Source of the DNA: Archangium violaceum
GTDB lineage: Bacteria; Myxococcota; Myxococcia; Myxococcales; Myxococcaceae
Reading direction: 5' to 3'
DNA length: 64,000 nt
Assembly: GCF_016859125.1 (NCBI RefSeq)
Contig: NZ_CP069338.1
Span: 4,527,501 to 4,591,500 of the forward strand
Made by a program: the position numbers and the translations under genes. Positions 5,206-9,690 of this stretch are shown piece after piece. Under the pieces are notes generated by a model. It saw only the letters and a list, made by a program, of their open reading frames with translations. It searched no databases and was not told the DNA's origin. Each line of letters begins with the position of its first letter. Position 1 is the stretch's first letter.

Positions 5206-8200
5206 ATGACCATGGGTGACGGAGGACGGGGCGTGCTGGCCGTGGTGGCGGAGAAGCCCGCCATGGCGCGCGACATCGCGCGGGCGCTGGGGGCTCGCGA
5301 GCAGGGCGAGGGGTGCTACCGCGGCAACGGCTACGTGGTGACGTGGGCGATTGGCCACCTGGTGGGGCTGGCGCAGCCGCACGAGATGAAGCCCGAGTGG
5401 AAGAGGTGGCAGCGGGAACTGCTGCCCATGTTGCCCGGGGACTGGCCGCTGGTGGTGGAGGAGAGGACGGCGAGCCAGTTCAAGGTGGTGCGCCGGGTGA
5501 TGACCGCGCCCGAGGTGGACGCCGTGGTGTGCGCCACGGATGCCGGGCGCGAGGGCGAGCTCATCTTCCGCTACATCTACGAGGCGGCCGGATGCCGCAA
5601 GCCGGTGAAGCGGCTGTGGGTGTCCTCGCTGACGGAGGGGGCCATCCGCGAGGGCTTCCGCTCGCTGAGGCCAGGGCGTGACTACGAGCCGCTGGCGGAC
5701 GCGGCGAAGGGGCGCAGCCGGGCGGACTGGCTGGTGGGGATGAACCTGTCGCGCCTGTACACGCTGGCGTGCGGGGACACGTTCTCGGTGGGGCGGGTGC
5801 AGACGCCCACGCTGGCGATGGTGGTGGAGCGCGAGCTGGCCATCCGCGACTTCGTCCCGAAGGACTATCTGGAAATCGTCGCCACCTTCGGCCCGGCGGG
5901 TCCTGAGGGTCCCCAGGGCAGCTACCAGGGCACCTGGTTCCGCCCCGCGGAGCCGGGCAGGGAGAAGGAATGGGACGCGCGTGAGGCGCGGCGCCTGCCC
6001 GCGGATGGCGAGGAGGCCAAACGCATCGTGGAGCGCGTGAAGACGGGACGCGCGGCCGTGGAGTCCGTCACCTCCGAGACGAAGCGGATGGCGGCGCCGC
6101 TGCTCTACGACTTGACGGAGCTGCAGCGTCACGCCAACCGTCTGTATGGCTTCAGCGCCCAGCGCACCCTGGAGCTGGCGCAGGCGCTGTACGAGAAGCA
6201 CAAGCTGCTGAGCTATCCGCGTACCTCCAGCCGGCACCTCTCCAAGCAGATAGCGGAGACGCTGCCGGAGGTGGTGCGCGCCATCCGCGGGCCGTGGGAG
6301 GCGTTGCTCGCGCCCGGCACGGGGCAGCGTCCCCTGGGCCGCCGCTTCGTGGACGACGCGAAGGTGACGGACCACCACGCCATCATCCCCACGACGACGT
6401 CGCCGGAGGGCGCGCGGCTGTCCCCGGACGAGCGACACATCTATGAGCTCGTCTGTCGCCGGCTGCTGGCGGCGTGGCACGAGGACTTCGTCTGGTCGGT
6501 GACGACCGTCATCACCGCGGTGAGCGCGCAGGTCGCGAGCGGAGACGTGCCGTTGGTGGACCGCTTCCACAGCACGGGCACGATGGTGGAGCGCGAGGGC
6601 TGGAAGGTGCTGGACGTGGGAGGCGGGCAGCGGGCGCCGAAGCCGCGCGAGGCGGGGAAGAAGGGGAGCGAGGCCGAGGCGGAGGAGCCGGAGGACGAGC
6701 AGGAACTGCCACCGGGGTTGGCGAAGGGGCAGGCGCGCGCGGTGCGGGAGGTGAAGCCCGTGACGAAGCGGACGCGGCCCCCGCCCCGCTTGACGGACGC
6801 GAGCCTGCTGACGGCGATGGAGACGGCGGGGCGGACGCTGGACGACAAGGAGCTGGCGGACGCGATGCGGGAGTCGGGGCTGGGGACGCCGGCCACGCGC
6901 GCGGCCATCATCGAGACGCTGCTGGACCGGGGCTACCTGGTGCGGCGGGGCAAGTCGTTCGAGGCGACGGAGAAGGGAATCGGTCTCATCCGGGTGGTGC
7001 ATCCGGACGTGAAGAGTCCGGCGATGACGGGGCAGTGGGAGGCGTGGCTGCGGCGCATCGAGCACGGCAGCGGAGACCTGGACTCCTTCCTGAAAGGCAT
7101 CGAGGCCTACGTCATCGAGGTGGTGGGCAAGGTCCCCCCGAACATCCCGATGCCAACAATCACCCCTCTCCCACCGGGAGAGGGACGGGGTGAGGGTACC
7201 AGGGGTCCCAGGTCGTCCCCGCGTTCATCCCCTCTCCCTCTGGGAGAGGGACGGGGTGAGGGTCTGCCCGGAACCCAGCGCCCCCGGGCCCCCAACGAGC
7301 TCGCCACCGTACCCAGCAGGAACACCGCGCGCCCCACGCTCACCCTCACGAGCCCGAACACCGTCCGGCCCGAGCGCAAGCCCCGGGAGCCCACGCCGCC
7401 CCACCAACTGCGGGGACTGCTCCAGGAGGTGTTCGGCTTCCCGGACTTCCGGCCGTACCAGGAGGCGGTGTGCCGCGCGGCGACGGAAGGCAAGGACCTG
7501 CTCCTGGTGATGCCGACGGGAGCGGGCAAGTCGCTGTGCTACCAGCTGCCGGGCCTGGCGCGAGCGGGGACGACGCTGGTCATCAGCCCGCTCATCGCGC
7601 TGATGGAGGACCAGGTGGCGCGGCTCCAGTCGCTCGGGCTGGCGGCGGAGCGCATCCACTCGGGGAGGGACCGGGCCACGTCGCGCCAGGTGTGCGCGGA
7701 GTACCTCGAGGGCCGGCTGGACTTCCTCTTCATCGCGCCCGAGCGGCTCGGGGTGCCGGGCTTCGTGGAGCTGCTGGCCCGGCGCACGCCCGCGCTGGTG
7801 GCGGTGGACGAGGCCCACTGCATCTCCCAGTGGGGACACGACTTCCGCCCGGATTACCGGCTGCTCGGCGCCCGGCTGCCGATGCTGCGTCCCGCGCCCG
7901 TCGTCGCGCTCACCGCCACGGCCACCCCGGACGTGCAGCGCGACATCGTCCAGCAACTCGGGCTCCGGGGCTCGGCGAACACTCCCGCGCAGACCTTCAT
8001 CCACGGCTTCCGGCGCACCAACATCGCCATCGAGGTGCGCGAGCTCAACCCGAGCCAGCGCTCCGAGGCCATCCGCGAGCTGCTCGCCGACCCCTCGCAT
8101 CGCCCGGCCATCGTCTACGCGGCCACGCGCAAGCACGCGGAGCGGTACGCGGAGGAGCTCGGCGCGGACTTCCGCACGGGCACCTATCACGCGGGCATGA

Positions 8201-9690: not shown

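Follow-up and report, generated by a model that had tools for sequence, protein, structure and literature searches.

A topoisomerase III–RecQ helicase fusion in Archangium violaceum and other members of three bacterial phyla, a candidate single-chain dissolvasome

RecQ-family helicases, that of Escherichia coli included, are described in passages of a 2021 review as forming a complex with topoisomerase III (Topo III, TopB) that dissolves intermediates of recombination and late replication, among them double Holliday junctions, catenanes and precatenanes; the helicase is thought to supply single strands (PMC8191776). Extracts of a 2026 paper differ on E. coli: physical contact between RecQ and Topo III is stated never to have been seen there, and topB is found to act together with RecG instead of RecQ (PMC13244152). 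These portions of the two sources disagree; whether the two enzymes are partners in bacteria is thus in dispute, and a covalently joined pair offers a direct test case. Reverse gyrase, as characterized in part of a further paper (PMC8185306), joins a type IA topoisomerase to an ATPase related to SF2 helicases, an arrangement shared in kind by the protein described here. Both enzymes and their partnership are therefore already known; new within the literature searched is the one-chain form with the topoisomerase first. No description of a topoisomerase-first TopB–RecQ fusion, and no biochemistry or genetics on it, was found among the papers listed in searches of open-access full text in PMC.

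The window analysed here, a 64,000-nucleotide stretch of the Archangium violaceum genome, contains a forward-strand gene (5206–9690) that encodes both enzymes in a single open reading frame of 1494 amino acids, with an ATG start and without an internal stop. An earlier note, made from the letters of the window, had read the frame as Topo III, RecQ and a terminal HRDC domain, in that order; Pfam and NCBIfam models above their cut-offs bear out the content, and the Pfam positions bear out the order. All Pfam calls (Toprim, Topoisom_bac, DEAD, Helicase_C, RecQ_Zn_bind and HRDC) exceed curated cut-offs, and all features given below lie on the same strand as the gene.

The Topo III portion, Toprim included, occupies aa 13–645, and an alignment of the TopB half to E. 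coli Topo III (1d6m) spans aa 13–664. It comprises a Toprim domain (aa 13–141, 5242–5628; PF01751) and a topoisomerase IA core (aa 160–629, 5683–7092; PF01131, E 9.7e-105), the latter carrying the catalytic Tyr337 in the motif SYPRT (6214–6216), as placed by alignment with E. coli Topo III. A low-complexity linker, recognized by its dN/dS and variable length (aa 646–730, 7141–7395), leads to the RecA1 and RecA2 lobes of a RecQ helicase motor (aa 731–1095, 7396–8490; PF00270 and PF00271, with DEAD at aa 749–911 and Helicase_C at aa 954–1059), in which the Walker A lysine, Lys775 of MPTGAGKS, is located by sequence position (7528–7530). Then come an extra winged-helix-like segment predicted from AlphaFold2 secondary structure (aa ~1087–1141, 8464–8628), a RecQ zinc-binding module with four cysteines (aa 1151–1198, 8656–8799; PF16124) and a predicted RQC-like winged helix (aa ~1213–1285, 8842–9060), which has no Pfam match above cut-off and is placed by the alignment of the model with RecQ cores up to about model residue 575. 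A second low-complexity linker, marked by its dN/dS and low pLDDT (aa 1301–1415, 9106–9450), precedes the HRDC domain (aa 1424–1489, 9475–9672; PF00570, E 6.6e-20).

NCBIfam models place the first half in the Topo III family, with 649.8 bits against a cut-off of 597 for PRK07726 (DNA topoisomerase 3) and 544.5 against 515.75 for TIGR01056. The second half scores 378.6 bits against 219.8 for the RecQ family model TIGR00614 and reaches 463 bits, below the cut-off of 640.2, for the RecQ equivalog TIGR01389; together with the zinc module and HRDC matches, these scores indicate that it is a RecQ-family member outside the TIGR01389 equivalog. The NCBIfam models also bear on whether the protein might act in the manner of reverse gyrase in a bacterium, introducing positive supercoils. 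Both join an SF2 helicase to a type IA topoisomerase, but reverse gyrase has its helicase first, the opposite order, and the motor here is a RecQ with HRDC, not that of reverse gyrase; the reverse-gyrase model TIGR01054 gives 101 bits, far below its cut-off of 471.7, and the linker is loose. This reading is highly improbable, and the separation from reverse gyrase drawn in the earlier note holds.

Active sites appear intact on both sides, as had been noted from the letters: the Toprim acidic residues Glu16, Asp112 and Glu116 and the catalytic Tyr337 are all present in the topoisomerase half, and Lys775 and the zinc cysteines (1173, 1192, 1195 and 1198) in the helicase half. Across aligned homologs, Asp112, Glu116, Tyr337, Arg339 and Gln199 occur in all 63 fused TopB rows and Glu16 in 62, the remaining row having a gap. 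Lys775, DEAH, TAT and the four zinc cysteines are present in all 50 rows whose RecQ portion is longer than 530 aa, a set that includes four contig-cut pieces and many close relatives and leaves the decayed helicases described below outside it. The Toprim "DxD" reads DAG in the fusion (TDAGREGE, aa 111–118); DAGREG is shared by all 63 fused rows and, among the standalone TopBs, by 42 of 51 rows (a set of non-independent rows), so that DAG seems to be the usual form in this TopB subfamily. The segment aligned to residues ~240–260 of E. coli Topo III, which we take to be the decatenation loop, is present in the fusion and not shortened.

A RecQ core fold is predicted for the helicase half: its AlphaFold2 model (aa 731–1494, built from 16 sequences; mean pLDDT 81, pTM 0.71) superposes on the Deinococcus RecQ core 4q48 (Z 44.5, 462 residues, rmsd 6.3) and on E. 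coli RecQ 1oyw (Z 35.0, 471 residues, rmsd 5.6). Between RecA2 and the zinc module the model places an extra small unit (model residues 357–411) made up of three helices and a pair of short strands, which we infer to be an additional winged helix; pLDDT falls below 50 across model residues 580–670. For a compact relative (L016, 1194 aa; nine alignment rows, HRDC omitted) the model reached pLDDT 59 and pTM 0.32, values at which the placement of the two halves cannot be read.

The genome is a single contig of 12.68 Mb and encodes two type IA topoisomerases, the fusion and a TopA in a 900-aa frame, so the separate topB that the earlier note suggested looking for is absent. Four RecQ-family genes score above the family cut-off: the fusion and frames of 708, 703 and 647 aa. 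These three additional proteins all fall below the TIGR01389 equivalog cut-off, and among them only the 708-aa frame has an HRDC Pfam match. The fusion is therefore the only Topo III of the organism, though not its only RecQ. Two GyrA/ParC-type subunits are encoded, so gyrase and topoisomerase IV are probably both present.

Recurrence of the domain order in other Myxococcota, which the earlier note had proposed surveying, is extensive. Among 195 Myxococcota genomes searched with a TopB profile and a profile of the fused-type RecQ (A1), profile A1 matches 93, and in 81 the TopB and RecQ matches fall in frames of equal length (1074–1815 aa); each of the 26 such frames fetched in addition to that of the window contains both halves. 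Two complete fused frames, L205 and L200 (the latter from the bdellovibrionotal genome G656), have no HRDC match. Five more Myxococcota RecQ frames (G139, G120, G103, G070 and G066) reach contig ends. The RecQ frames of G139 and G070 retain the last part of TopB, which establishes the fusion; in G103, and likewise in the acidobacterial genome G455, one fragment of TopB and one of RecQ both stop at contig ends, which points to a fusion. G120 shows RecQ together with its linker and G066 shows RecQ by itself; in neither was a TopB piece of the fusion seen, and a fusion is our guess. The separate 722-aa TopB of G120 belongs with standalone TopBs. All six were considered as possible fissions and are counted instead as fusions broken by contig ends. 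Within the family to which the window belongs, a one-frame fusion occurs in 77 of 96 genomes, or 82 when five contig-cut cases are counted.

In Acidobacteriota (297 genomes, sampled from a larger group), TopB is found at E 1e-100 or better in 35 genomes and the RecQ subfamily in 44; seven carry the fusion (G195, G215, G231, G265, G272, G362 and G386), 36 have RecQ alone, and in G412 and G458 TopB is separate from RecQ. In Bdellovibrionota (290 genomes), TopB and the RecQ subfamily each occur in 23 genomes, and three carry the fusion (G198, G512 and G656); TopB is found, as a partial match, in only one (G627) of the other 20 RecQ genomes. RecQ stands alone in seven Myxococcota genomes (G156, G183–G186, G192 and G194), none with a TopB-strength match. 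Across the three phyla, 58 of the 63 genomes with standalone RecQ of this subfamily lack TopB at E 1e-100 (7 of 7 in Myxococcota, 32 of 36 in Acidobacteriota and 19 of 20 in Bdellovibrionota), absences that are weak one by one because many titled loci are metagenome-assembled genomes and many genomes are fragmented. Among the named loci from the best 80 places of a further scan, the fusion appears in Bryobacterales and other Acidobacteria, in Myxococcaceae and in one Bdellovibrionales bacterium; phyla beyond these may also carry it.

The fusion is thus a conserved family spanning three phyla and not a peculiarity of one genome. The suggestion that two genes were joined by an error of assembly or annotation has nothing in its favour: the genome is a single contig, and because independent genomes from three phyla carry the same frame, an artefact is ruled out, leaving this explanation a negligible probability. 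The family was not encountered on mobile elements: none of 72,556 plasmid records and none of 50,697 phage records has one place covering 80% of the fusion protein, and 39 viral-contig loci gave no topoisomerase match. One locus, L342, was considered as a two-domain match (query residues 259–1001) and rejected as helicase only.

Several variants were seen during the survey. Genome G200 has two closely related standalone TopB genes (L121 and L137) beside its fusion (L018). In L018, L204 and L218 the open frame extends by ~370, ~510 and ~270 aa, respectively, N-terminal of Toprim. In L189 (Acidobacteriota) and L211 (Myxococcota f17), TopB without RecQ bears a long, cysteine-rich, zinc-ribbon-like C-terminal tail, which in L211 ends lysine-rich. 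The bdellovibrionotal genome G636 has its RecQ in a 1079-aa frame with an extra part, and in two Bacteroidales loci (L028 and L029) topB and recQ lie on the same strand ~2.6–2.7 kb apart.

The TopB half is consistent with one origin. A quick tree (thinned to 88 of 114 rows) places 42 fused rows and the divergent L210, which was labelled fused after its frame was read, on one side of a single branch, with the standalone TopBs on the other; in a careful tree (59 of 114 rows) 35 fused rows including L210 group together in 90% of bootstrap trees, with branch support (92/47) that falls short of strong. Solo and fused RecQs are interspersed in the RecQ trees. The quick RecQ tree (85 of 118 rows; the quick trees have long branches) requires eight changes between the fused and solo states, four of them forced by starred branches, and the careful tree (55 of 118 rows) seven (bootstrap range 7–8), two of them so forced; constraining the fused RecQ rows together is rejected (AU p 0.0001, in a test made after the tree was seen). 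On the simplest account the genes would have fused once and the TopB half would later have been lost several times, the number of losses being uncertain; repeated capture of TopB from an already fused gene may be an alternative. In the quick TopB tree (97) and the careful RecQ tree (99/98) alike, L190 and L194 of Acidobacteriota cluster with L204 and L205 of Myxococcota, a pattern that movement of the fused gene in one piece would predict. Searching with the TopB half as query (tblastn), we found no TopB remnant at E 1 beside 22 solo RecQ loci, most of which span only a few kilobases; a repeat with five control loci recovered all five. Contig ends were examined for few of the solo RecQ genomes.

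The helicase half has decayed in two lineages. In the acidobacterial genomes G450 (L198; a single contig) and G490 (L197), TopB is followed by a lone RecA1 without DEAH and TAT and then a stop, and each genome also encodes a RecQ of the fused-type subfamily on its own, in G490 at a distance of ~22 kb. L210 (positions 245–3619; genome G015) is a divergent, fusion-like frame of 1125 aa that has lost Walker and DEAH and kept the zinc cysteines. A further TopB of G015 lies in a frame of 939 aa (L209).

Pairwise dN/dS (NG86) between the fusion and eight family members is 0.15–0.48 for the TopB half, 0.13–0.23 for the helicase, 0.10–0.30 for the zinc-winged-helix part and 0.22–0.50 for HRDC; the first linker gives 0.34–1.3 over 51–84 codons and the second 0.23–1.15. 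Both halves are under purifying selection, and the first linker is nearly unconstrained. Because the catalytic residues are kept and dN/dS is low, both halves look maintained as enzymes on a loose tether. These values also bear on whether the helicase half is mainly there to bring the topoisomerase to its DNA targets, with an ATPase that is dispensable. The truncated helicases of G450 and G490 speak for such a role, as does L210 with its retained zinc cysteines, but the helicase motifs are present in every long-RecQ row of the set defined above and helicase dN/dS is 0.13–0.23; moreover, G450 and G490 are special cases because each has its separate RecQ. We consider this explanation very unlikely.

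The first linker varies from 22 to 281 aa in 15 examples, many of them rich in Pro, Ala, Ser, Gly or Arg. Its variable length and near lack of constraint suggest a flexible tether more than tight mechanical coupling. Two units of a dispersed palindromic repeat lie in frame within it on the forward strand (7163–7197 and 7229–7263), each contributing codons to the linker. The core palindrome has 311 exact copies in the genome and its reversed control none; a third copy in the window (37164–37184) is apparently intergenic. Traces of both units occur at the same linker position in congeners (L223–L226) and in another genus (L280), and none is seen in the linkers of L227 and L236. Unit 1 has partly diverged in L224, L225 and L226, while the palindrome arms of unit 2 are intact in L223–L226 and L280, although the surrounding linker diverges fast. 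Since dispersed repeat units lie in frame in the linker of the fusion and its congeners, the repeat was captured by coding sequence, which fits a stretch that may tolerate much change.

Two working enzymes might share one chain without catalytic coupling and each act on its own substrates, the fusion securing co-expression and equal numbers. A linker of such variable length that is nearly neutral, the fact that either half can vanish or decay while the other persists, and E. coli genetics that, in the extracts of the 2026 paper, separates topB from recQ (PMC13244152) would all suit this arrangement; against it are the seemingly single origin of the TopB side, the retention of the fused state in the family of the window at the frequency given above and the adjoining recQ and topB genes in a Listeria record. 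We regard the uncoupled arrangement as rather unlikely.

We favour instead the reading that the fusion is a flexibly tethered, single-chain RecQ–Topo III dissolvasome, and assign it a probability of roughly two in three (about 0.68). The domain scores, the retained catalytic residues, purifying selection on both halves, the predicted RecQ fold, recurrence in three phyla, the lack of another Topo III in the genome, a TopB tree consistent with one origin, the adjoining Listeria genes and the complex described in the 2021 review (PMC8191776) speak for it. Against it are the E. coli findings in the 2026 extracts (PMC13244152), the decay of the helicase half in L197/L198 and in L210, which implies that coupling is dispensable at times, the many relatives with a solo RecQ and, in most cases, no TopB at all, and the complete fused frames lacking an HRDC match (L205 and L200).

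RecQ-family helicases unwind DNA with 3′ to 5′ polarity. If the halves of a one-chain dissolvasome act in a coupled manner, the RecQ motor would unwind DNA at forks, D-loops and single or double Holliday junctions, exposing single strands, and the tethered type IA site would cut one strand via Tyr337 and pass another through; branched DNA would be held by HRDC and the winged helices. Jointly, the two activities would clear last links such as hemicatenanes, precatenanes and double Holliday junctions without crossover. The linker would tether the halves, raising their local concentration and holding stoichiometry at 1:1, thereby replacing the protein contact of eukaryotic Sgs1/BLM with Top3–Rmi1. 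The fuller proposal, that the protein is a self-contained covalent dissolvasome without an Rmi1-type partner, which arose once, was transferred between phyla as a unit and repeatedly lost its topoisomerase half, we hold only tentatively, at somewhat less than even odds. If true, RecQ–Topo III would be a real functional unit in bacteria, contrary to the current E. coli picture.

A fusion that is conserved and retains the active sites of both enzymes strongly hints, from the genomic side, that RecQ and Topo III are a functional pair in some bacteria. It provides a one-gene system for testing RecQ–Topo III coupling in bacteria and would supply an enzyme of naturally 1:1 composition for single-molecule studies of how double Holliday junctions are dissolved.

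Set beside known systems, the fusion shares both catalytic modules with E. coli, its TopB half resembling 1d6m and its RecQ core 1oyw. In E. coli, however, TopB and RecQ are separate proteins, whereas here they form one chain with a linker, and the predicted winged-helix-like segment before the zinc module distinguishes the fusion from E. coli RecQ. The standalone RecQs of the fused-type subfamily in Acidobacteriota, Bdellovibrionota and some Myxococcota match profile A1 at E < 1e-150, as the fusion does, and have an HRDC match in 11 of 12 listed solo frames (the exception is L295), but have no TopB half. In a Listeria monocytogenes record (L362, 1495–5444), recQ and topB adjoin on the same strand and, like the fusion, hint at a bacterial partnership; there they are two genes, recQ first and 23 bases apart, in place of one frame with topB first. 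Reverse gyrase, another union of helicase and type IA topoisomerase, draws its motor from a different subfamily, and its family model scores far below cut-off here. The eukaryotic Sgs1/BLM–Top3–Rmi1 system, as presented in passages of the 2021 review (PMC8191776), likewise pairs a RecQ-family helicase with Topo III in double Holliday junction dissolution. Eukaryotes rely on non-covalent contacts and the OB-fold protein Rmi1, in contrast to the covalent link of the fusion.
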